A DNA stretch of 34,283 nucleotides from contig DYET01000188.1 of NCBI GenBank assembly GCA_020725625.1, positions 1 to 34,283 of the forward strand. Direction: 5' to 3'. Numbering within the stretch: position 1 is the first letter of the stretch; every line of letters begins with the position of its first letter. Below are positions 4,277-20,461 of the stretch, piece after piece. This DNA is from Desulfovirgula sp. (GTDB taxonomy: Bacteria; Bacillota; Desulfotomaculia; Desulfotomaculales; Desulfocucumaceae). The translations under genes and the position numbers were made by a program. The notes below the pieces were generated by a model. It saw only the letters and a list, made by a program, of their open reading frames with translations. It searched no databases and was not told the origin of the DNA.

Positions 4277-5734
4277 TCAGTTTTCCGGCCGCCGGGGACC
4301 CTGGGGCAGGCGGAGGCGGAAGGTGGAGCCCCCGGGTGAACTTTCCGTCAATGCCAGGTCCCCGCCGTGGGCCCGGGCCAGGAGCCGGCCGATGGTTAAA
4401 CCAAGTCCCAGCCCGCGGGATTTTACCTTTCCGTCACCGCCGCAGTAAAACCGCTCAAAGATGTAGGGCTGTTCCTCAGGGGGAATACCCTCCCCGTCAT
4501 CCTTCACGTCAAGGGTTACATCATCCCCAATCTCCCTCAGGACAATCTGGATTTCGGTGGCTGAGGCCTTCCGGCTGTTGTCTATCAGATTTAACAGTAT
4601 CTGGCGAAGCCTCCCGGCGTCGCCGCTGATTAAAACCGGCCCCCCGGGCAGCCGCCGGTCGAACCGGATATTATTGAATTCGGGGAGGACTATGAGTTGC
4701 CGGATCACGTCCTCCACCAGCCCGGACAGATCCACCTCTCCTTTCTCAACGGCCGCTGCGCCGGATTCCAGAGAAGAGAAATCAAGCAGCTCCTCCACCA
4801 TCCGCTGCAGCCTCTTGGCTTCGTCCAGCGAGATTTTCAGAAATTTTTCGGCCTCTTCCCCTTCCACGACCTTGTCCTGCACGGCCTGAATCATGCCCCG
4901 GATTGAGGTGAGCGGGGTGCGCAACTCATGAGACACCCCGGCCAGCAGGCTTGTCCTGAGCCGCTCGAGTTTTTCAAGCTGGGCCGCCATGTTTTCAAAG
5001 GATGTCACCAGCTGCTGCAGTTCCCGTTCCTTCAGCCGCTGCGGCAGAACAACGTCATAATTTCCTCCGGCAATGGACTGGGCGGAGGCAGCCACCTGAA
5101 CAAGGGGGCGGGTTAGTTTCCGGGAAAGAAAATAAAGCACCAGCCAGCCGGCCAGCCCGATAACACCGGTCAGCAGGGCAAGGGACCCGTACAGTCGGCG
5201 CACCTGATCCAGCACTCCCCTGGTGGGCGAGCTGACATACAGCGCGCTGCCTGCCTTTCCGTTCCGCGAGATCGGCACGCCTACGCGGAGCCAGGTTTGA
5301 GAATCGATATCGACACGTTCACGGACGATTTGACCGGAAAGCACCGCGGGGTACGACGGCGGCGCCTCCTGTAAGGCCGGAAGAAAGGAGGCGGGGCTCT
5401 TTATATTCCTGATGACGTGTACCTTGCCCCTCTGGTCCACAATCTGGATCAGCGTCGCAGGCGGCCTGATTTGTCTTAACCGCGCCGTCCTGTCCTGAAT
5501 AAGCCATTCAGGGTACGGGTCCTCCCCCGGCGTCCGCTCGTAACTCTCAGCCAGCTGCAGGGCGCGCAGCTCAAGCAGTTCGTAATGGTGATTATAGGCG
5601 TTTATCCCGATCCAGGCGCCGCTGATTGCAGCCAGTAAAAAAAGGCTCAACAAGAGCACAAGCACATAGAGACGTGTCCAGTACGCCAGCAGGGGCACCG
5701 TTTTGTGTTTGTACCGGTTATTTTTCCTTAACAC
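4277..5734 (-). CDS. Sensor histidine kinase (two membrane segments, HAMP)
   Basis: This membrane sensor kinase of 485 residues autophosphorylates and passes phosphate to the regulator encoded just upstream. Membrane segment 1 lies at about 22-43, an extracytoplasmic sensor region at 44-182, membrane segment 2 at 184-204, HAMP at 205-260, and HisKA with the phospho-acceptor His269 in GVSHELRTP. The ATPase domain has an N-box (NLIDNSRKA), G1 (DDGEGIP) and G2 (GLGLGLTIG). The start GTG 5734 overlaps the regulator gene by 17 bases; a second GTG at 5698 is an alternative. The order regulator-kinase-MFP-ATPase-permease on one strand suggests that the kinase senses envelope stress or a toxic compound and induces the pump. 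The ligand is unknown. Confidence 0.92.
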   Translation of the reverse strand: MLRKNNRYKHKTVPLLAYWTRLYVLVLLLSLFLLAAISGAWIGINAYNHHYELLELRALQLAESYERTPGEDPYPEWLIQDRTARLRQIRPPATLIQIVDQRGKVHVIRNIKSPASFLPALQEAPPSYPAVLSGQIVRERVDIDSQTWLRVGVPISRNGKAGSALYVSSPTRGVLDQVRRLYGSLALLTGVIGLAGWLVLYFLSRKLTRPLVQVAASAQSIAGGNYDVVLPQRLKERELQQLVTSFENMAAQLEKLERLRTSLLAGVSHELRTPLTSIRGMIQAVQDKVVEGEEAEKFLKISLDEAKRLQRMVEELLDFSSLESGAAAVEKGEVDLSGLVEDVIRQLIVLPEFNNIRFDRRLPGGPVLISGDAGRLRQILLNLIDNSRKASATEIQIVLREIGDDVTLDVKDDGEGIPPEEQPYIFERFYCGGDGKVKSRGLGLGLTIGRLLARAHGGDLALTESSPGGSTFRLRLPQGPRRPEN

Positions 5735-6401
5735 GCAGTAAATACCCCGTTCCCCGTATGGCTATGATCTCTCCCTCTTCCGGGGGCCAGTTCCTGAGAG
5801 ACTGCCTAATCCGCTTGACGGCTGTATCCACGGTCCGGTCACCTCCGTCGTAATCAGCGCCCCATACATTATCCAGCAACTGGCTGCGGGTAAAGGCCTT
5901 GTTCGGGTGGCGGACCAGAAAGGCCAGCAGCTCCCAGTCGCGGGGGGTTAGCGGTGCGGGTTCACCCCGGACCGAAGCGGTACGGGAGGCAAAGTCCACT
6001 GCAAGGCTGCCAATTTTGTAAACTTCCGGCTCAACAAGGCGGGCCGGGCGCCGCAGGACGGCCCGTACCCGGGCCACCACTTCATCCGGGTCAAAGGGCT
6101 TGGAAATATAGTCATCGGCCCCCCGGTCAAGCCCTTTTAAGCGGTCTTTGACGGCTCCCCGGGCGGTTATCATAATCACGGGGCAACTGCCCCGGGAGCG
6201 AATTTCATCCAGCACCGCCCACCCGTCTTTTCCGGGCAGCATCAGGTCGAGGAGAACCAGTGAGGGGTTGACTTCGGAAAACTTGGCCAAGGCCTCCTCC
6301 CCGTCGGAGGCGACCTGAACCCGAAAGCCCGCTTTTTCCAGGTAAACCTTTATTAAAAGGGCAATGGGGTCATCGTCTTCCACTACCAGAATGGTCTGCA
6401 T
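5718..6401 (-). CDS. OmpR/PhoB-family response regulator
   Basis: This 227-residue DNA-binding regulator has a receiver domain at 1-118 with the acidic pair Asp10/Asp11, phospho-acceptor Asp52 in LLDLMLPG, a Thr in MITA and Lys101 in ISKPFD. The winged-helix output domain at ~130-225 shows LTPRDWELLAFLVRHPNKAFTR early on and RTVDTAVKRIRQSLR in the recognition region. It starts at ATG 6401 with GGGAGGAAG upstream. It is the first gene of the two-component/efflux cluster and probably activates that cluster, perhaps including its own promoter. A TTGACA lies upstream on the minus strand at 6468-6463, but no convincing -10 is seen at the right distance. Confidence 0.94.
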   Translation of the reverse strand: MQTILVVEDDDPIALLIKVYLEKAGFRVQVASDGEEALAKFSEVNPSLVLLDLMLPGKDGWAVLDEIRSRGSCPVIMITARGAVKDRLKGLDRGADDYISKPFDPDEVVARVRAVLRRPARLVEPEVYKIGSLAVDFASRTASVRGEPAPLTPRDWELLAFLVRHPNKAFTRSQLLDNVWGADYDGGDRTVDTAVKRIRQSLRNWPPEEGEIIAIRGTGYLLRVKEK

Positions 6402-8233: not shown

Positions 8234-9382
8234 TCAATAAAATTCTTCGGTGACGTCTTTCCCCATGTCTTGCAGGATCCGGATCAAATCCCTGATTATG
8301 TACTGCTTGTAAATGTATATGGCCGGAACCTCGGGCCCCTGCCGGACCGGGTTTGCCGCCGTTCCCACGATAAAATGCACGCTGTCGGCGGACAGCAGTA
8401 TGGACGCCAGCCGGCTGGCGCCGTCTCTCCCCCTGACGTCCTTGAGGTCCGGCTTTTTCTTCAGGTGGTCCAGGGCGTCGACCAGAGTGACCGCCCCCTC
8501 GGTAACCAGGTCTATACCGGCGATGGTCCCGACCGGCGGTACCCGGTCGCTTCTGGAGGAAGGGTCGATGCTGAGATCCCTGCCCAGCACCCGGGCCACG
8601 ATATTGCCGGTGGTCCCCCCGCAGACAACCTTGATCCCGCCTGACCGCATCAGCTTATCAACCACTTCCACGTCGTCGTCCATGTTCCGCGGGGGTCCGA
8701 TCAGCACCATCACGTGCAGGGGACGGCGCACCTTGATCACCGCCACGCTGGCGTCATCCGCCGGCCTTTCCCCGTAAATGTGGCTGCAAAGCCTGGCAAT
8801 TTCCCTGGCCCAGTCCGCGGCGCTCAGGGCGGGGGAGTAAGTTCCGGCCAGGTACATGCCCACCCGCCCCCGATCCCAGGCCAAGTTCATTCTTTGCCCG
8901 GATCCGGCGTGGATAACCCCGTCGGTGGCAATGACCAGCCAGTTGCTGTCCCCGACGTTGAAATAGCATTCCCTGATCAGCTTGCCGCCGATAATCCTCT
9001 CGATCCTTTCAGGGTTTTGCAGGCTGTTTTTCTTGCCGATGTAAGCCGGCGGGTTTTCGTATTCCACCAGGTAGGCCCGGCCGTCCTGGGTAATCTGGAG
9101 GATGGTGAAAGTGCTGTAGGCCAGCCGGCGGACCTTGCAGATAGGCAGGGTCTGGGCCAGGGTCTCGATCACGTCGTCTATCTGCCCCCCCATTTTCAGC
9201 ATGGTGCCGGCGGTTTTGGCAGTGAGGCGGGAAAGTATGTTGGCCTTTACCCCGCTGCCGAGGCCGTCTGCCACCACCACGATGTGGCTGCTGTCGGTGC
9301 GCGCCACCTCAATGCTGTCACCGCACAACTCCTCCCCGTCCTTTTTCAACTGGGCGGTTCCGATATCCACACTGACTTTCAT
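8234..9382 (-). CDS. SpoIIE-like PP2C serine phosphatase linked to the sensory hydrogenase
   Basis: Residues 1-220 form a PP2C/SpoIIE-type phosphatase domain. The metal-binding positions are visible as GDS (21-23), VVADGLGSG with Asp39, ATDGVIHAG with Asp154, and ADDAS with Asp209/Asp210. Such enzymes remove phosphate from serine or threonine of partner proteins. Residues ~222-382 form a second, unassigned domain with a glycine-rich VVCGGTTGN segment. The gene starts at ATG 9382 after AAAGGAGAG and lies 28 bases behind the sensory hydrogenase, so the two are co-transcribed. Known family context: PP2C phosphatases often accompany group C sensory [FeFe]-hydrogenases. Inference: H2 or redox state sensed by the hydrogenase alters phosphatase output. 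No partner kinase or anti-anti-sigma substrate lies in this window. Confidence 0.82.
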   Translation of the reverse strand: MKVSVDIGTAQLKKDGEELCGDSIEVARTDSSHIVVVADGLGSGVKANILSRLTAKTAGTMLKMGGQIDDVIETLAQTLPICKVRRLAYSTFTILQITQDGRAYLVEYENPPAYIGKKNSLQNPERIERIIGGKLIRECYFNVGDSNWLVIATDGVIHAGSGQRMNLAWDRGRVGMYLAGTYSPALSAADWAREIARLCSHIYGERPADDASVAVIKVRRPLHVMVLIGPPRNMDDDVEVVDKLMRSGGIKVVCGGTTGNIVARVLGRDLSIDPSSRSDRVPPVGTIAGIDLVTEGAVTLVDALDHLKKKPDLKDVRGRDGASRLASILLSADSVHFIVGTAANPVRQGPEVPAIYIYKQYIIRDLIRILQDMGKDVTEEFY

Positions 9383-9410: not shown

Positions 9411-11126
9411 TCATTCCTTCCCCATCAGGTCGATCAGTTTGCTTAAAAGGACCTTCGTCTCGGCGGTGGTTTCACCCAGCAGGCCGGCAATCTCCTGGGC
9501 CACCGTCATCTGCTTGACCAGCACCTCCTGGGCCCTGGCTATGGTCTGCCCCTTGACCAGTTCGAACTGCTCCCGCTGCCTCTTTTCGGAGGTGATGTCC
9601 ACCAGGATCCCCACCACGGCCTTCTCGCTTTCCAGGGGGAAGATTATCTCCCTGGTGACGATGTCCAGCTCGGGATAGGTATGCAGCCGGTTCAGCATCT
9701 CACCCGTTTCTATAACCTTGAGGAAGTTTTCCGGATTGATCAGACTGTCCAGACTCTTTCCCACCATTTCCCGGGCCTGGCACTTGAAGAGCCGCCCCGC
9801 CGCCGGGTTAACCTCTTTGATGACCAAGCCGTGATCCACTATGATCACGGCGTTGGGCATGGCGGACAGGACCAGGTTAGACATCGATTCGGCCCGCTTG
9901 CGCATGTAGGGGATGCACATCTGCACCTCGGCATTTCCCTGGTACACCGCCACGGCCTTGTCCCGGCAGGTGTCGTAACCGCAGGCTCCGCAGTTCAGCT
10001 CGTCCTCGGGCCGGTATTTGCCGGTTTGGGCCAGGATTTGCCTTAAGACGCCCTCGTCGGGCATGGCCAGGGCCACCTTGCGGTGGCGGTACTTCCTGTA
10101 CATGTTCACCTGCGGCAGATCGGCCCCGCCGGAATTGCGCCCCTCCTGCCCGGCCCTGGCCCGGTAGAAGTCGGTTATCTTTCGGCGGCGGGTAAATATA
10201 TCCTCTTCCCGGCAGAGGGAAAGGGGCCCGTCTATGCAGCCGCCCCGGCAGGCAAGAAGCTCCATGAATACCGGGGGCCGGTCAATTTTGTTCTGGGACA
10301 CGTGCCTCAAAAAGTTAATGCAGTTCTGCAGACCGGTCACCGTGATGAAATCGCTTTCCCCCTCCATCTTCAGCGCCCTGATCATTCCGCCCTCAATGGG
10401 GAAAAGCCTGCCCAGGTCCGGGCAGGGGCCGTCAAAATCTTCCTCGGGAAGATCCCCGGGGTTCAGACCCTCTTCCTGCACCCACTCCCAGACTTCGTCA
10501 AAACCCAGTACGAAGTCAATGGCGTCCTGTACCTCCTCGGTCCTGGCCTCACCTTTCTTGGCCGCGCAGGGGCCGATAAAAACCGTCAGGTGGTCGGGAT
10601 AAACCGTTTTCATATAGCGCCCGTGGGCGATCATGGGCGATACGACCGGGGACAAGACGGGTAAAAGGCCGGGATAGTGCTTTTCAATCAGGTTCACCAC
10701 CACCGGGCAGGCGCTGCTGATCAGCGGCCGGCCGGAGGCCATCCGGCGGTGCTCCCTGACCACCAGTTCGGCCCCCAGGGAAGTCTCCTGAACCCGCCCG
10801 AAACCCAGCCTCCTCAGCAGGGCGGACATTTGACCGGGGTACTTGAGGGGAAGGCCGGCGGCAAAGGACGGGGCCACCCCGGCAGCCAACAGCTTGCCCC
10901 GTTTCAGCAGGTCCTTCACCTGCTCAAGGTCCGAGGCCACCTTCTTGGCCTTCTGGGGGCAGGACAGCACACAACGGGCGTCTTGTACGCACAGGTCGTC
11001 GATGATCCCGGCGTGCAGCACCCCGGACTGGTCCCCGGTGCTGAAGCGTATGGCTTTTACCGCGCAGCCCCTGAGGCAGCGGTAGCAGTCGCGGCATCTG
11101 GCTTCGTTGGTGGTTATCAGCCCCAC
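9411..11126 (-). CDS. Sensory (HydS/HsfB-type) [FeFe]-hydrogenase with PAS domain
   Basis: This 571-residue protein probably senses H2 rather than producing it in bulk. Residues 11-21 form a complete ferredoxin motif (CxxCxxCxxxC); the second motif at 46-56 lacks one cysteine (Asp instead). The H-cluster domain has L1 SSACP (Cys140), L2 GPCAAKKGE (Cys187) and L3 LACRGGC (Cys293, Cys297). L1 has Ala where catalytic hydrogenases carry the proton-transfer cysteine, as is typical of the sensory group. Four cysteines at 379, 382, 387 and 404 probably bind another [4Fe-4S] cluster. A PAS domain follows (~415-520), then a coiled C-terminus. The start GTG 11126 is nine bases after GGGAGGG; ATG 11135 abuts that site. 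A longer open frame to 11498 overlaps the divergent leader and is rejected. Confidence 0.88.
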   Translation of the reverse strand: MGLITTNEARCRDCYRCLRGCAVKAIRFSTGDQSGVLHAGIIDDLCVQDARCVLSCPQKAKKVASDLEQVKDLLKRGKLLAAGVAPSFAAGLPLKYPGQMSALLRRLGFGRVQETSLGAELVVREHRRMASGRPLISSACPVVVNLIEKHYPGLLPVLSPVVSPMIAHGRYMKTVYPDHLTVFIGPCAAKKGEARTEEVQDAIDFVLGFDEVWEWVQEEGLNPGDLPEEDFDGPCPDLGRLFPIEGGMIRALKMEGESDFITVTGLQNCINFLRHVSQNKIDRPPVFMELLACRGGCIDGPLSLCREEDIFTRRRKITDFYRARAGQEGRNSGGADLPQVNMYRKYRHRKVALAMPDEGVLRQILAQTGKYRPEDELNCGACGYDTCRDKAVAVYQGNAEVQMCIPYMRKRAESMSNLVLSAMPNAVIIVDHGLVIKEVNPAAGRLFKCQAREMVGKSLDSLINPENFLKVIETGEMLNRLHTYPELDIVTREIIFPLESEKAVVGILVDITSEKRQREQFELVKGQTIARAQEVLVKQMTVAQEIAGLLGETTAETKVLLSKLIDLMGKE

Positions 11127-11153
11127 GGCAAACATCCCTCCCGGCCGGCTATT

Positions 11154-11169
11154 TGTGACAAATATCACT
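11154..11169. promoter_or_regulatory. CRP/FNR- or Rex-like operator between the divergent hydrogenase operons
   Basis: TGTGA-CAAATA-TCACT is an inverted repeat with a six-base centre. It lies just downstream of the predicted start of the sensory-hydrogenase transcript and just upstream of, touching, the -35 of the maturation operon. Two close copies occur before hydC (20331 and 20442). Confidence 0.65.
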
Positions 11170-11198
11170 TGAATTATTATCATTTTAATGTATATAAT
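11169..11198 (+). promoter_or_regulatory. Promoter of the hydrogenase-maturation operon
   Basis: TTGAAT (11169-11174), an 18-base spacer and TATAAT (11193-11198). The operator at 11154 abuts the -35, a position centred near -43, which would suit an activator. Confidence 0.55.
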
Positions 11199-11210
11199 TA
11201 TATAAATCAA
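11182..11210 (-). promoter_or_regulatory. Promoter of the sensory hydrogenase-phosphatase operon
   Basis: Read on the minus strand: TTGATT (11210-11205), 17 bases, TAAAAT (11187-11182). It overlaps the divergent maturation promoter. The operator at 11169-11154 lies shortly after the expected transcription start, a position that would suit a repressor. Confidence 0.5.
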
Positions 11211-11341
11211 TAATCTCGTTGAACCTGACCGGGGCGGTTCGACTTCCGGGCCGGGAGGGTGCAGCTTGGTCCGTGACCCTGAGGCAGACAGGCGGCGTTC
11301 GGCACTGCAGTCAAGGGGCGGGACGCCGGCTTGGTTTTGCG

Positions 11342-11371
11342 GGCCTGTTTTCCCTCCAGGGAAAACAGGCC
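11342..11371 (+). promoter_or_regulatory. Strong hairpin in the leader of the maturation operon
   Basis: A perfect 14-base inverted repeat, GGCCTGTTTTCCCT and AGGGAAAACAGGCC, is followed by TTTGGTTTG and then, 22 bases on, by the GAGGAGG ribosome-binding site of the first gene. It could be an attenuator or mRNA-stabilising structure. A weaker pair CGGCGT/ACGCCG (about 11293-11327) lies just upstream. No known riboswitch was recognised in the ~200-base leader. Confidence 0.5.
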
Positions 11372-11408
11372 TTTGGTTTGAAGCCATTTGTGAGAGGAGG
11401 AACAACCC

Positions 11409-11660
11409 TTGACCGCCCAACGGCGTATCGGCGTCATTGGCATAGTCATTGAAGACCGGGAACAAGCTCCCAAAATCAACAGCATCCTCAGTTCCCACGG
11501 CGAGGTGATTGTGGGGCGCATGGGCGTCCCCTACCGGGAAAGGGGGCTGTCGGTAATTTCATTGATTGTTGACGGCAGCACCGACGAAATCGGCGCCCTG
11601 GCCGGCAAGCTGGGCCAAATCGGGGGGGTTCGGGTGAAAAGCGCACTGGTGACACGATAA
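11409..11660 (+). CDS. Iron-only hydrogenase system regulator, TM1266 family
   Basis: This 83-residue protein has the ACT/ferredoxin-like fold pattern of the TM1266 family, seen next to [FeFe]-hydrogenase maturases in many Firmicutes and Thermotoga. The recognisable run is RIGVIGIVIEDRE, then INSILSSHGEVIVGRMGVPY and SVISLIVDGSTDEI. The family is thought to have a regulatory or assembly role in hydrogenase systems, but no DNA-binding motif or cofactor ligand is visible. The TTG start at 11409 follows GAGGAGG at a normal distance. It is the first gene of the maturation operon, 59 bases before the small aspartase-like gene. Confidence 0.85.
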   Translation: MTAQRRIGVIGIVIEDREQAPKINSILSSHGEVIVGRMGVPYRERGLSVISLIVDGSTDEIGALAGKLGQIGGVRVKSALVTR

Positions 11661-11719
11661 CCTGAAAATACCTCATGCTGAAGACCTTATTCGGCCGGAA
11701 TATTTCTGGAGGTGTCATT

Positions 11720-11893
11720 ATGACGGTTGGCTACCGGCTGGAAAAGGATTTGCTGGGCGAAATGCCGGTCCCGGCGGACGCATATTACTGCATTCACAGC
11801 CTGAGGGCCCGCAGGAATTTTGACGTCAGCGGCTGCAAGGTACACCCGGGCCTCCTGCGGGCCCTGGCCGAACTGCAGGGCATCCTGCAGTGA
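11720..11893 (+). CDS. Stand-alone N-terminal fragment of aspartate ammonia-lyase (57 residues)
   Basis: The 57-residue product matches only the first ~50 residues of aspartase (AspA): YRLEKDLLGEMPVPADAYY, then IHSLRARRNF and a HPGLLRALAEL helix start. Full aspartases have ~470 residues, and their catalytic serine loop and other active-site parts come much later, so this product cannot be an active lyase. It has its own good ribosome-binding site (GGAGGTG, six bases before ATG 11720) and a clean TGA, and only 75 bases separate it from hydF, so no remainder is hidden. As I recall, full-length aspA genes lie in the same place in maturation operons of other Firmicutes, so this is either a decayed aspA or a reduced gene kept for another role. 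The conserved YYGIHT glycine is Cys here. Confidence 0.75.
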   Translation: MTVGYRLEKDLLGEMPVPADAYYCIHSLRARRNFDVSGCKVHPGLLRALAELQGILQ

Positions 11894-11968
11894 CCCGGCC
11901 GGGCTTCGCCGGGTCCCGGAAGCTTGGCCGCCGGCTGAAAGCGGCAGAACGCAACGGAGGTGAGGACA

Positions 11969-13195
11969 ATGCATGACACACCCCGCGGCAGCAGGCTGCA
12001 CATCGCCATCTTCGGGCGGCGCAACGCCGGCAAGTCCAGCCTGATCAACGCCCTAACCGGGCAGGAAATCGCCATTGTTTCGCCGGTGGCCGGAACCACC
12101 ACCGACCCGGTGTACAAGTCCATGGAAATTCTGCCCATAGGCCCGGTGGTGCTGATCGACACGGCGGGCCTTGACGATACCGGTGAACTGGGAGATTTAA
12201 GGGTGGCCAGGAGCCTGGCGGTGCTGGACAAAACCGACCTGGCGCTGCTGGTGGTGGACCACCGGACCGGACCGGGTGAAATGGAAAGGAACTTCATTGA
12301 CGCAGCCGGCCGGAGAAAAATACCCGTAATCGGCGTGTCGAACAAAACAGACCTGCCGCCCGGCCCCGAGGAAGTGGATTCTAAGCTTCCCGCCATACCC
12401 TGGGTGAGGGTAAGCGCCCTCACCGGCGGAGGCATTACCGAACTGAAGCAGGCCATGATCAGGGTTGCCCCGAAAGAGTGGACCGCCCCCACGATTGCCG
12501 GCGACCTGGTGCCCCCCGGCGAACTGGCACTGCTGGTGGTGCCCATCGACCTGGCCGCCCCCAAAGGCCGGCTGATTTTGCCCCAGGTGCAGACCATCCG
12601 GGACCTGCTGGACCACGACTGCCTGGCCATGGTGGTGAAGGAGCGGGAACTGAAGGCCGCCCTCAGCCGGCTGCAAAAACCGCCGGCCCTGGTGATTACC
12701 GACTCCCAGGCCTTTTTGAAAGTGGACGCCGACACTCCGCCCGGCGTGCCCCTCACCTCCTTCTCCATCCTTTTTGCCCGCTACAAGGGCGACCTGGCCA
12801 CGCTGGCTAGAGGAGCCCTGGCGGTGGAAGACCTGCATCCCGGCGACTGCGTGCTGATTGCCGAGGCCTGCACCCACCACCGGGTTGCCGACGACATCGG
12901 TACGGTGAAGATCCCCCGCTGGCTGCGGCAGGCGGCGGGAGGGGACCTGCGCTTCGAGTGGTCCAGCGGCATCGAACTGCCCAGGGACCTGGCCCGATAC
13001 CGCCTGATCGTGCACTGCGGCGCCTGCATGATCAACCGCCGGGAGATGATCAGCCGGATCATGGCCGCCCAGGCCGCCGGCGTGCCCATAGTCAATTACG
13101 GTGTGTTGATCGCTTACCTGCACGGAATTTTGCGGCGCGCCCTGGGGCTTTTTCCGGACGTGCTGGCGCTGCTGGACGAGAACGAGGTCGGTTAG
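11969..13195 (+). CDS. hydF: [FeFe]-hydrogenase maturation GTPase HydF
   Basis: HydF (408 residues) is the scaffold on which the [2Fe] part of the H-cluster is built and from which it is delivered to apo-hydrogenase. The Era/TrmE-like GTPase domain shows G1 GRRNAGKSS (16-24), a G2 Thr in GTTT, G3 DTAG (64-67) and G4 NKTD (125-128). The C-terminal cluster-binding motif CxH...HCxxC is present as CTH near 300 and HCGAC near 350. The start ATG 11969 has GGAGGTG seven bases upstream; an in-frame GTG at 11960 lies inside that site. It is followed by hydE after two bases. The gene should serve both the sensory and the NADH-linked hydrogenase of this window. Confidence 0.95.
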   Translation: MHDTPRGSRLHIAIFGRRNAGKSSLINALTGQEIAIVSPVAGTTTDPVYKSMEILPIGPVVLIDTAGLDDTGELGDLRVARSLAVLDKTDLALLVVDHRTGPGEMERNFIDAAGRRKIPVIGVSNKTDLPPGPEEVDSKLPAIPWVRVSALTGGGITELKQAMIRVAPKEWTAPTIAGDLVPPGELALLVVPIDLAAPKGRLILPQVQTIRDLLDHDCLAMVVKERELKAALSRLQKPPALVITDSQAFLKVDADTPPGVPLTSFSILFARYKGDLATLARGALAVEDLHPGDCVLIAEACTHHRVADDIGTVKIPRWLRQAAGGDLRFEWSSGIELPRDLARYRLIVHCGACMINRREMISRIMAAQAAGVPIVNYGVLIAYLHGILRRALGLFPDVLALLDENEVG

Positions 13196-13197
13196 TC

Positions 13198-14274
13198 ATG
13201 GAACGTTTTTCCGCCGTCCTGCAAAGCGTGCTGGAGGGCAAAAAGCCGGACAGAGAGGATATTGTCACCCTCCTTTCGGCCCGGGGCAACCAGGTTGCCG
13301 CCCTTTTCCGGGCCGCCGACCACGTCCGCCGGGCCGGGGTGGGCGATGCCGTGCACCTGCGGGCCATTATCGAGTTTTCCAATTACTGCCGCAACAACTG
13401 CCTTTACTGCGGCCTGCGCCGGGACAACAGGCGGCTTCCCCGCTACCGCCTGGCCGAAAAGGAAATCATGTCTTCCGTCGATAAAGCGGCGGCCATGGGA
13501 TTCCGCACCGTGGTCCTGCAGTCCGGCGAGGACCTGTTATACAGCGCCTCGTACATTGCCGGGCTGGTCGAACAAATCAAGCGCAGGCACGGCCTGGCGG
13601 TAACCCTGTCCCTGGGTGAGCGCAGCCGTGAAGAATACAGGATCTGGCGTGAAGCCGGGGCCGACCGCTACCTGCTGAAACACGAAACAGCCGATGAAAA
13701 GCTTTATCAATACCTCAAACCGGACAGCAGCCTGCAGATCCGCCTGCAGTGCCTGTACTGGCTGAAAGAACTAGGCTACCAGACCGGATCCGGAAACATG
13801 GTGGGCCTGCCGGGCCAAAACCTGGACAGCCTGGCCGTAGACATCATCCTTATGCGCAACCTGGACGTGGACATGGCCGGCATCGGCCCCTTTTTGCCCC
13901 ACCCTGCCACGCCCTTGAAGGACGCTGAACCAGGGAGCCTTGAACTGACCCTGAAGATCCTGGCTGTAACCAGGCTGTACCTGCCGCAGGCACACCTTCC
14001 GGCCACCACCGCCCTGGGCACGCTGGCGCCTGATGGCCGAAAGATGGCCTTAAGCTGCGGCGCCAATGTAATCATGCCCAATTTGACACCCGCCGGCATG
14101 CGGGACAAATACCTCATATACCCTCAAAAGGCGGATATTATTGAAGAACCTCATCAGGCGCTGGATAAGATCAAGGCGCTGCTGGCTGAATTGGCCCGGC
14201 CGGTAGCCCGGGATTACGGCCGTGCCAAAATTTTTTCGGGAGGTTATGGAAGCCATGACAACTGCAAAGGCTGA
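13198..14274 (+). CDS. hydE: [FeFe]-hydrogenase maturation radical SAM enzyme HydE
   Basis: HydE (358 residues) is a radical SAM enzyme acting in synthesis of the dithiomethylamine bridge and iron precursor of the H-cluster. The SAM-cluster motif CxxxCxxC is seen at Cys64, Cys68 and Cys71 (NYCRNNCLYCG), followed by RRDN. The rest keeps the (beta-alpha)8 barrel pattern, including VVLQSGED and GNMVGLPGQ. The start ATG 13198 is two bases after the hydF stop, with a GAGGTCGG inside the hydF end as ribosome-binding site. Its end overlaps the hydG start by 20 bases, so hydF, hydE and hydG are translationally linked. Confidence 0.95.
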   Translation: MERFSAVLQSVLEGKKPDREDIVTLLSARGNQVAALFRAADHVRRAGVGDAVHLRAIIEFSNYCRNNCLYCGLRRDNRRLPRYRLAEKEIMSSVDKAAAMGFRTVVLQSGEDLLYSASYIAGLVEQIKRRHGLAVTLSLGERSREEYRIWREAGADRYLLKHETADEKLYQYLKPDSSLQIRLQCLYWLKELGYQTGSGNMVGLPGQNLDSLAVDIILMRNLDVDMAGIGPFLPHPATPLKDAEPGSLELTLKILAVTRLYLPQAHLPATTALGTLAPDGRKMALSCGANVIMPNLTPAGMRDKYLIYPQKADIIEEPHQALDKIKALLAELARPVARDYGRAKIFSGGYGSHDNCKG

Positions 14275-15673
14275 TTTTATCGACGAAGGGCGGATCCAAG
14301 GGTGGCTGGAGGAAGCCCGGACGGCCAGCGGGGAACAGGCCCGGCGGATTATTGACCGGGCCCGCCTGGCCAGGGGCCTGACTCCCCAGGAATGCGCCGT
14401 CCTGCTGCACCTGGAGAACGAAGGACTGCTGGCCGAAATGTACCGGGCGGCCCGGGAGGTGAAGGAAAAAATTTACGGCCGGCGGCTGGTCCTGTTTGCC
14501 CCGCTGTATGTCAGCAATTACTGCGTGAACAATTGCGTGTACTGCGGCTACCGGCGGGACAACGGCTTTCCCCGGCGGAGGCTGACCTTGGACGAACTGA
14601 GGGAAGAAGTGAGGATACTGGAGTCACTGGGGCACAAGCGGTTGGCCCTGGAGGCCGGGGAAGATCCACGGAACTGCCCGATGGAATACATCCTGGAGGC
14701 CATCGGAACCATCTATGAAGTAAAGGACTCAAACGGCAGCATCCGGCGCATCAACGTCAACATCGCCGCCACCACGGTGGAAAACTACCGCCGACTCAAA
14801 GAGGCCGGCATCGGCACGTATATACTTTTCCAGGAAACGTACCACCGGGAAACCTATGCGGCCATGCACCCCAGCGGGCCGAAGCGCGACTACGACTACC
14901 ACACCACGGCCATGGACCGGGCCATGGAGGGCGGCATCGACGACGTGGGCCTGGGGGTGCTGTTCGGCCTCTACGACTTCAAATTCGAGGTGCTGGCCAT
15001 TCTGGCGCATGCCCTGCACCTGGAAGAGGTCTTCAGCGTGGGGCCGCACACCGTTTCGGTGCCCCGGCTGCGCCCGGCGTTGGGGGTGGACTATGGGAGC
15101 TTCCAGTACCTGGTGGGGGATGCCGATTTTAAAAAGATTATTGCCGTTTTGCGCCTGGCGGTTCCCTACACCGGCATTATCCTGTCCACCCGGGAACGGC
15201 CGGAGTTCAGGGACGAACTGATGGCCGTGGGGGTATCCCAGATCAGCGCGGGTTCGTGCACCGGGGTGGGAGGCTACAAGCTGGAACAGGAGAAGAAATC
15301 CTCCTGCGCCGGCCCTGTCGGGGAGGCTTCTCAGTTCCAGGTGGAGGACCACCGCAGCCCCGACGAAGTGCTTCGCAGCGTCTGCCTTTCGGGCTACATC
15401 CCCAGCTTCTGCACCGCCTGCTACCGCAAGGGCCGCACCGGCGACCGCTTCATGGCCCTGGCCAAAAGCGGACAAATTCAAAATGTCTGCCAGCCCAACG
15501 CCATTCTCACCTTCAAGGAGTTCCTGGAGGACTACGCCTCCCCGGCCACCCGGGAGGTGGGGGAAAGGGCAATTGCCGTCCATCTGGAGGATATTACCAG
15601 ACCAGATGTGCGCAGGCTGACCATGGAACGTCTAAAAATGATTGAAATGGGGCAGAGGGACCTTTATTTCTGA
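14255..15673 (+). CDS. hydG: [FeFe]-hydrogenase maturation tyrosine lyase HydG
   Basis: HydG (472 residues from the chosen start) is a radical SAM enzyme that cleaves tyrosine to give CO and cyanide and makes the Fe(CO)2CN synthon of the H-cluster. The N-terminal SAM motif CxxxCxxC is at Cys90, Cys94 and Cys97 (NYCVNNCVYCGYRRDN). The C-terminal auxiliary-cluster motif is seen as SFCTACYRKGRTGD with a further Cys in IQNVCQPNA. Three starts are possible: GTG 14222, ATG 14246 (only two bases after GGGAGG) and ATG 14255 (eleven bases after it); the last is preferred on spacing. It is the final gene of the maturation operon and is followed by a clear terminator. Confidence 0.95.
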   Translation: MTTAKADFIDEGRIQGWLEEARTASGEQARRIIDRARLARGLTPQECAVLLHLENEGLLAEMYRAAREVKEKIYGRRLVLFAPLYVSNYCVNNCVYCGYRRDNGFPRRRLTLDELREEVRILESLGHKRLALEAGEDPRNCPMEYILEAIGTIYEVKDSNGSIRRINVNIAATTVENYRRLKEAGIGTYILFQETYHRETYAAMHPSGPKRDYDYHTTAMDRAMEGGIDDVGLGVLFGLYDFKFEVLAILAHALHLEEVFSVGPHTVSVPRLRPALGVDYGSFQYLVGDADFKKIIAVLRLAVPYTGIILSTRERPEFRDELMAVGVSQISAGSCTGVGGYKLEQEKKSSCAGPVGEASQFQVEDHRSPDEVLRSVCLSGYIPSFCTACYRKGRTGDRFMALAKSGQIQNVCQPNAILTFKEFLEDYASPATREVGERAIAVHLEDITRPDVRRLTMERLKMIEMGQRDLYF

Positions 15674-16323: not shown

Positions 16324-18048
16324 TTAGAACCTGCCCCGGGCGGTATATTTGGTGTGCAGGAGGTGGTGCGACTTCTCACCAAGGGGCTGACCCAGGAACT
16401 CCTCGTAAATCCTTTTGATGGAAGGGTTCTCGTGGGATTTTCGGATTTTCAGGTTCTTGTCCTCCTGGTACAGGGCCTGGGCCCTCAGCCTCCTGATTTC
16501 GTCGTTCACCGGAACTGGCTGGCCGCCCCCGCTTACGCACCCGCCGGGGCAGCACATGATTTCGATGAAGTGGTAGTCGGCGGTGCCGTCCTTGATTCTT
16601 TCCATGATCTTCCGGGCATTGCCAAGGCCGTGGGCCACGGCCACCTTGACGTTGCCGATACCGTCCACCGGAACCACGGCCTCCTTGATCCCGTCAAGGC
16701 CCCTGACCGCCTGAAAGTCCAGGTTCTCCAGGGTCTTCCCGGTGGCCACCTCGCAGGCCGTCCTCAGGGCGGCCTCCATGACCCCCCCGGTAGCCCCGAA
16801 AATGGTGGCCGCACCGGTGTACTCACCCAACGGGTCGTCGTAGTACCCGTTCTCCAGGCCGGCGAAGTCTATCCCGGCCTGCCTGATCATTTTGGCCAGC
16901 TCCCTGGTGGTAATCACGTAGTCCACGTCCCTGTACCCGCTGCCGGCCATCTCGGGCCGGCTGCACTCGAACTTCTTGGCGGTGCACGGCATTACCGAGA
17001 CCACCACGATGTCCCTGGGGTCGATGCCCGCCTTTTCTGCGTAATAGGTCTTCGTCAACGCCCCCAGCATCTGGTGGGGGGACTTGCAGGTGGACAGGTG
17101 GGGCAAAAGATCCGGATAGAAGTGCTCGATAAATTTTATCCAGCCGGGGCTGCAGCTGGTAATCATGGGCAGCACGCCGCCCTCCCTGATCCTCTTCAGC
17201 AGCTCGCTGCCTTCCTCAATGATGGTCAGGTCGGCAGCGAAGTTGGTGTCAAAGACCCGGTTAAAGCCCAGCCTCCTGACCGCCGCCAGCATTTTCCCGG
17301 TGACCAGGGTGCCCGGCGGGTAGCCGAACTCCTCTCCCAGGGCCGCCCTTACCGCCGGGGCGTCCTGGATGACCACGAACTTGGAGGGGTCGAAGATGGC
17401 GTGCCAGACCTCTTCAATATTTTCCTTTTCCGTGATCGCCCCCACCGGGCAGACCAGTATGCACTGGCCGCACAGGGTGCAGGAAACGTCGTTCAGGCTC
17501 CGGCCGAAGGCGGGCTCCACCCTGGTCTTGAAGCCCCTGCCCTGGGTGTAGATGGCCGAGACCGTCTGAACCTCCTTGCAGACGGTGACGCACCGCCGGC
17601 AGAGGATGCACTTGGTCTGGTCCCTGACGATGGAGGGGGAAAGGTCGTCGATTTGGCCCCCGCTTTTTTCCCCGGTGAACTTGACCTCCCTGATCCCCAG
17701 ATCGTCGGCCAGCTTCTGCAGTTCGCATTTTTGGTTGCGGGGACAGGTCAGGCAGTCGTCCATCGGGTGGTCGGAGACAATCATTTCCACTGAAAATTTT
17801 CTGGCCCTTCTCACCCTCAGGTTGTTGGTGTGCACCACCAGGCCCTCGCTGGCCGGAAAAACGCAGGCCGGCTGGAGGTTGCGGTTGCCCTCAACCTCCA
17901 CCAGGCACACCCGGCAGGCCCCGATGGCCTGCACTTCCGGCAGGTAGCAGAGGGTCGGAATGCGGACGTTCACCTTCCTGGCCGCCTCCAGGATGGTCGT
18001 TCCCTCTTCAACCTGCACCTTTTGCCCGTCTATGGTCAAAGTTACCAT
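16324..18048 (-). CDS. hydA: NADH-linked [FeFe]-hydrogenase catalytic subunit HydA
   Basis: This 574-residue catalytic subunit has the full N-terminal cluster set: [2Fe-2S] ligands Cys34, Cys45, Cys48 and Cys62; a His-ligated [4Fe-4S] cluster (HPMDDCLTCPRNQKC, 94-108); and two ferredoxin motifs at 147-157 and 190-200. The H-cluster domain shows L1 TSCSPGW (297-303), L2 MPCTAKKFE (353-361) and L3 EIMCCPGGCVSGGGQP. In L1 the residue before Pro, Cys in Clostridium pasteurianum hydrogenase, is Ser; I recall this variant in trimeric enzymes but cannot check it. The protein stops after the H domain, without the C-terminal [2Fe-2S] extension of Thermotoga HydA. It is 19 bases downstream of hydB. The enzyme exchanges electrons between NADH, perhaps ferredoxin, and H2. 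Confidence 0.95.
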   Translation of the reverse strand: MVTLTIDGQKVQVEEGTTILEAARKVNVRIPTLCYLPEVQAIGACRVCLVEVEGNRNLQPACVFPASEGLVVHTNNLRVRRARKFSVEMIVSDHPMDDCLTCPRNQKCELQKLADDLGIREVKFTGEKSGGQIDDLSPSIVRDQTKCILCRRCVTVCKEVQTVSAIYTQGRGFKTRVEPAFGRSLNDVSCTLCGQCILVCPVGAITEKENIEEVWHAIFDPSKFVVIQDAPAVRAALGEEFGYPPGTLVTGKMLAAVRRLGFNRVFDTNFAADLTIIEEGSELLKRIREGGVLPMITSCSPGWIKFIEHFYPDLLPHLSTCKSPHQMLGALTKTYYAEKAGIDPRDIVVVSVMPCTAKKFECSRPEMAGSGYRDVDYVITTRELAKMIRQAGIDFAGLENGYYDDPLGEYTGAATIFGATGGVMEAALRTACEVATGKTLENLDFQAVRGLDGIKEAVVPVDGIGNVKVAVAHGLGNARKIMERIKDGTADYHFIEIMCCPGGCVSGGGQPVPVNDEIRRLRAQALYQEDKNLKIRKSHENPSIKRIYEEFLGQPLGEKSHHLLHTKYTARGRF

Positions 18049-20330: not shown

Positions 20331-20346
20331 TGTGATATAAATCACT
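20331..20346. promoter_or_regulatory. Operator copy 2 (leader of hydCBA)
   Basis: TGTGA-TATAAA-TCACT, with the same design as at 11154 and 20442. It lies about 110 bases downstream of the predicted hydC transcription start, spaced 111 bases from the other copy, so two bound proteins could cooperate or form a roadblock. Confidence 0.6.
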
Positions 20347-20441
20347 ACCTTTTGGGCAAAAAAAGGGGTTCGAAAGCTCTTATTTTTTCAAGCTTATGAC
20401 CACCCCGGCTGAAAATAGGAGTTCAATTTTGCGGCTAGATA

Positions 20442-20457
20442 TGTGATTTATGTCACT
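20442..20457. promoter_or_regulatory. Operator copy 1 (over the hydCBA transcription start)
   Basis: TGTGA-TTTATG-TCACT starts four bases after the -10 box of the hydC promoter and so covers the expected transcription start, a typical repressor position. Confidence 0.65.
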
Positions 20458-20461
20458 TGTA

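Follow-up and report, generated by a model that had tools for sequence, protein, structure and literature searches.

A Very Probable aspA Pseudogene within the Hydrogenase Maturation Operon of a Desulfovirgula sp.

The window, the whole stretch of 34,283 nucleotides analyzed here, carries the hydEFG maturase genes for [FeFe]-hydrogenase (Table 1). A gene for a putative TM1266-family regulator is the first of the maturation operon, with an aspA remnant downstream. The remnant begins with a 57-residue ORF, which sits between the regulator gene and hydF, and intact hydE and hydG follow. The hydF start is the ATG at 11969, which has GGAGGTGA immediately 5' of it, within the aspA tail; the ORF list opens this frame at a GTG at 11960. 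An [FeFe]-hydrogenase gene lies at 16324–18048 on the strand opposite to the maturation operon.

Table 1. Features of the maturation operon in the window, and broken aspA copies between the TM1266-family gene and hydF in relatives
Feature	Position or genome	Strand	Basis
TM1266-family putative regulator gene	11409..11660	+	NCBIfam TIGR03959, E = 6e-34; Pfam PF21699, E = 5e-33
GGAGGT, ribosome-binding site of the former aspA gene	11708..11713	+	direct reading; 6 nt 5' of the ATG
aspA N-terminal remnant, codons 1–51 (MTVGYRLEKDLLGEMPVPADAYYCIHSLRARRNFDVSGCKVHPGLLRALAE)	11720..11872	+	57-aa ORF against the AspA start of L064, 68% identity
aspA C-terminal segment fused in frame (LQGILQ)	11873..11890	+	C-side +8.05, N-side -2.98
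CAGTGA, apparent second loss of ~10 nt (PxxL-coding stretch)	11888..11893	+	comparison with C-parts of L064, L065 and L066; exact extent presumed
aspA C-terminal remnant, 27 codons plus stop (TRPGFAGSRKLGRRLKAAERNGGEDNA-stop), out of frame with the ORF	11893..11976	+	alignment to the AspA C-terminus
hydF	11969..13195	+	TIGR03918, E = 4.5e-174
hydE, intact, start approximate	13192..14274	+	TIGR03956, E = 4e-108
hydG, intact	14222..15673	+	TIGR03955, E = 9e-194
Broken aspA, internal deletion	L077 (Pelotomaculum PtaB.Bin104)
Broken aspA, several frameshifts	L078 (Desulfotomaculaceae STF1_176)
aspA C-terminal stub with stop	L072 (Pelotomaculum SL1-B34.2)		score 63 vs 37 in shuffles
Decayed aspA N-terminal stub	L083 (Pelotomaculum UBA1371)		score 48 vs 38
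Decayed aspA N-terminal stub with internal loss	L097 (Desulfotomaculaceae STF1_190)		score 69 vs 48

Divergent from the maturation operon, the minus strand encodes an [FeFe]-hydrogenase-like protein with FeS and PAS domains (9411–11498), and a SpoIIE-type phosphatase gene adjoins it (8234–9382, minus strand). Together, these two genes resemble a sensory hydrogenase module. Three CRP/FNR-type palindromes of the form TGTGA-N6-TCACT(T/A) were found against 0.2 expected, at 11154–11170, 20331–20347, and 20442–20458. The one at 11154–11170 precedes the maturation operon, and in the sister species (L063) hydF has a similar, wider-spaced palindrome upstream of it.

The original prediction described a 57-residue ORF with its own ribosome-binding site, and this ORF is present at 11720–11893 on the plus strand, from an ATG with GGAGGT 6 nt upstream to a TGA at 11891–11893. 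Its family was assigned by phmmer searches against PDB and NCBIfam. The aspartate ammonia lyase of PDB entry 8rj1 matched residues 4–52 (E = 7e-13), and the NCBIfam AspA models matched over profile positions 4–53 of 474 (E about 1e-12); a Pfam search with the 57-residue peptide returned no match. The ORF was also said to match only the AspA N-terminus. This holds for residues 1–51, but residues 52–57, LQGILQ, fit a C-terminal segment of the enzyme and are equivalent to the AspA residues directly before PxxLTRPG. The usual N-terminal continuation after AspA residue 51 is VKWAAA or VKQAAA. Compared with 60 AspAs, residues 52–57 reached a mean BLOSUM62 score of +8.05 against the C-terminal segment versus -2.98 against the N-terminal continuation, and the homologous offset was the best one for LQGILQ in 52 of the 60. 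From these alignments, the predicted deletion junction is at or beside 11872/11873.

AspA sequence continues past the stop codon of the ORF. Bases 11890–11976, read in another frame, encode V-TRPGFAGSRKLGRRLKAAERNGGEDNA-stop, and TRPGFAGSRKLGRRLKAAERNGGEDNA aligned to the AspA C-terminus with a best score of 73 (to L144), against 47 for the best of 200 shuffles; for comparison, the AspA of Desulfallas sp. Bu1-1 (L064) ends in TRPGIAGARMLAGRLISKLEQGDDENA-stop. The statement that nothing of AspA is left in the 75 bases before hydF was therefore wrong. The TGA of this remnant overlaps the hydF start (ATGCATGA), as it does in intact relatives such as L064. Directly after LQGILQ, the window reads CAG-TG-ACC where relatives have the PxxL-coding stretch. 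An apparent loss of ~10 nt, its exact extent presumed from the comparison, shifted the frame here and made a premature TGA. The clean stop of the ORF would thus be a frameshift product.

Because LQGILQ and the out-of-frame tail both correspond to the AspA C-terminus, the locus reads as one aspA pseudogene. Homology to both ends of aspA is kept in the original order and place, the N-part at 11720–11872 and the C-part at 11873–11890 plus 11890–11976. From aspA start to stop, the window has 257 bp versus 1458 bp in L064. The first 51 and the last roughly 33 codons are present, and ~398 between them are absent relative to L064; the counterparts of L064 residues about 52–449, the central region with the catalytic signature, are missing. 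Against TIGR00839, whose cutoff for a functional AspA is 681 bits, the genome's own match covered positions 1–48 of 468 at 35.8 bits. We conclude that the locus is very probably an aspA (aspartate ammonia-lyase) pseudogene within an operon of the order TM1266-aspA-hydF-hydE-hydG.

The nearest genomes having aspA hold a full-length copy in the equivalent slot. Such copies, in the order TM1266-aspA-hydF, were found in Desulfallas Bu1-1 (L064), L065, L066 Desulfotruncus, and many Pelotomaculum, L070 among them. In a survey of 113 genomes of the order, the AspA N-terminus matched full-length frames; the exceptions were the window and a few copies that were visibly broken or partial. The search for the same short ORF between the TM1266-type gene and hydF, a check proposed with the original prediction, yielded no equivalent intact ORF in these 113 genomes or in 80 hydF loci. 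Five relatives instead carry broken copies in the slot (Table 1). A HydF tree of 50 loci shows at least 11 changes in the state of aspA, intact or lost; the tree was built by a quick method, and this count is a guide only, gain and loss being indistinguishable from the tree alone. Where a remnant is left in the slot, it shows the change to be a loss. The original prediction had left two options, and the recent deletion remnant is the one borne out by the kept ends of aspA, the missing middle, the shifted frame, the full-length genes in the slot of relatives, and the other broken copies.

In the sister species (L063/G001), whose HydF is 90% identical, both TM1266 and aspA are missing from the region upstream of hydF. 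In L063, a promoter-like stretch similar to the window's lies directly 5' of hydF, and a DNA alignment of the two upstream regions is mostly noise save near hydF. A candidate AspA tail there was not accepted, with 24 of 48 nt matching in register, 95 of 20000 shuffles as good, and a nonsignificant protein score; a tail remnant in L063 is only suggested. L063 bears the label "remnant" on the HydF tree, though this tail is not counted as shown.

Two further arrangements were seen among relatives. The aspA of L067 (MAG.313) lies between imperfect direct repeats of ~86 nt (4437–4522 and 5916–6002); the downstream repeat extends as far as the hydF start, and the upstream one takes the place of the first ~27 AspA residues. 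Its sisters, L068 and L069, have one repeat-like stretch (5930–6001) and no aspA. This looks like a loss of aspA, or a rearrangement, by way of flanking repeats. Candidatus Syntrophopropionicum ammoniitolerans (L089), ammonia-tolerant by its name, has no aspA before hydF, and aspA loss might track ammonium-rich habitats.

The N-terminal part in the window has decayed little. Its pairwise dN/dS to relatives was about 0.11–0.15, like that of pairs of intact copies. Position 24, G in all 59 other AspAs with a residue there, has become C, the sole loss among the near-invariant positions listed. In branch tests, which were underpowered at 46 codons and shifted with the taxon set, omega was 0.13–0.14 on the window branch versus 0.11 in the background; setting omega to 1 for the whole branch gave a delta lnL of 3.2 or 1.5 in the two taxon sets, and neutrality along all of this branch appears disfavored, though not firmly. 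Synonymous divergence between the window and L063 was 0.31–0.36 in hydE, hydF, and hydG (NG86). Neutrality since their split would predict about 12 of 46 residues changed; by our reading of the alignment, 6 changes are specific to the window, and 6 or fewer without a stop have a probability of about 0.015 under neutrality (d = 0.155). As so few changes would be unlikely under neutrality, either the split from L063 predates the break or selection has acted on the fragment. A recent deletion would explain the slight decay, as would selection on the fragment. A break younger than the split needs no new function, and it fits the C-terminal remnant, which looks as fresh as the N-terminal part though it is not translated from the ORF. 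The original prediction held that full-length aspA in relatives together with neutral decay of this ORF would speak against it; the relatives do carry full-length aspA in the slot, but this copy has shown no neutral decay so far.

The shortage of changes also speaks for a reduced, non-enzymatic microprotein derived from AspA and kept for a role in hydrogenase maturation or regulation; it could, for instance, bind HydF or a partner. The ribosome-binding site, the open frame, and the well-kept N-terminal sequence agree with such a protein, and AlphaFold2, run on the 57 residues with 16 relatives, predicted a hairpin and two helices at a mean pLDDT of 82, though with a pTM of 0.46; this predicted model is uninformative on function. 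In AspA, the N-terminal stretch is one piece of a larger domain, not a separate domain. The frame itself closes with C-terminal aspA sequence and a stop made by a frameshift, the ORF is wholly absent from the sister species, and N-terminal stubs elsewhere (L083 and L097) have decayed. The reduced protein with a non-enzymatic role, the other option of the original prediction, found no positive support, no relative having a comparable intact ORF, and we regard it as highly improbable. It is just as hard to credit that a truncated AspA peptide was recruited as a small maturation partner in one species, with selection preserving its N-terminus once the enzyme was gone. The fragment might alternatively matter as a 5' translation element, in which ribosomes loading at the aspA site keep the leader translated and aid hydF expression, the peptide being irrelevant. 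The aspA stop and hydF start overlap in intact relatives, and here, where the ORF stops 75 nt before hydF, the GTGA at 11890–11893 could restart translation into the tail frame that overlaps hydF. This GTG has no ribosome-binding site before it, while hydF has its own GGAGGTGA site; hydF is intact without such a leader ORF in the sister species and in L068 and L069, and the length of the ORF bears no sign of selection. A role of this kind is very doubtful.

An assembly or binning artefact, in which a collapse in the draft contig mimics a deletion from an aspA that is truly intact, has equally little to recommend it. The draft genome comprises 205 contigs, and the locus is known from a single copy in one assembly. 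The missing middle of aspA was not found elsewhere in this 97%-complete genome, the congener likewise lacks AspA, a single collapse would hardly produce two separate losses, one of about 1.2 kb and one of about 10 nt, and several independent genomes have broken copies in the slot. The truncated AspA is probably what a fairly recent breakage has left of a common hydrogenase-operon gene, rather than a novel small protein.

For this pseudogene, the following history can be proposed. About 1.2 kb of the middle of aspA would have been deleted, nearly or exactly in frame (ALAE|LQGILQ), leaving the frame open. GCCGAA is present at both junction-equivalent sites in L064, which makes a deletion between short repeats of this kind plausible; among close relatives of the window's aspA, none is unbroken and could fix the ancestral junction. 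A further ~10 nt may then have been lost after LQGILQ, shifting the frame into the TGA. The deletion would be recent, later than the split from the sister species, which would explain why the N-terminal part still resembles a working aspA. The original ribosome-binding site may still yield a short, non-functional peptide. Loss of the kept aspA tail would harm hydF, because the tail carries the hydF ribosome-binding site. The absence of AspA may be tolerated if ammonium for the dithiomethylamine ligand comes from other sources, such as IlvA or free ammonium.

No other AspA was found in the window's own genome (97% complete) or in the congener (88% complete), and SdaA (PF03313) was likewise not found in either; both proteins are likely absent from the two genomes. 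C87 and C129, the two further members of the lyase superfamily in the window's own genome, were rejected as AspA, as their sequences read as argininosuccinate lyase and adenylosuccinate lyase, respectively. The threonine ammonia-lyase IlvA was found in both genomes, and the T- and H-proteins of glycine cleavage are present. These findings suggest that a single other ammonia-lyase, or else free ammonium, is enough. Viewed by itself, the window's aspA is an unremarkable deletion pseudogene. Set beside the broken copies of relatives, it indicates that aspA, thought to supply ammonium for [FeFe]-hydrogenase cofactor assembly, has been lost repeatedly from otherwise intact hydEFG operons. The window's genome keeps hydEFG and an [FeFe]-hydrogenase, with IlvA alone detected and neither AspA nor SdaA. 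A lineage apparently coping without both enzymes offers a natural test of the in vivo need for a dedicated ammonia-lyase.

A literature search turned up no specific account of broken aspA genes in hyd operons. The locus is best compared with intact and decayed copies of the gene. The aspA of Desulfallas sp. Bu1-1 (TIGR00839/PRK12273) shares with the window its position, a ribosome-binding site before the same start, an N-terminal part 68% identical, the TRPG(I/F)AG tail, and the overlap with the hydF start. The Desulfallas gene is complete, whereas the window lacks about 398 codons, is shifted in frame, and has lost the active-site regions. The pseudogenes of L077, L078, L097, L072, and L083 are, like the window's, remnants located between TM1266 and hydF in operons that retain the maturase genes; unlike it, they have other deletion ends, more decay, and no clean 57-codon ORF. 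The association of aspA with hydF has been explained as an ammonium source for the dithiomethylamine ligand, and organisms without aspA have been reported to possess both sdaA and ilvA (Pagnier et al. 2024, PMC11736057). The intact ancestor of the window's gene belongs to this aspA-hydF association. The window's genome and its congener depart from the reported pattern: neither AspA nor SdaA was detected in them, only IlvA, despite the presence of hydEFG.
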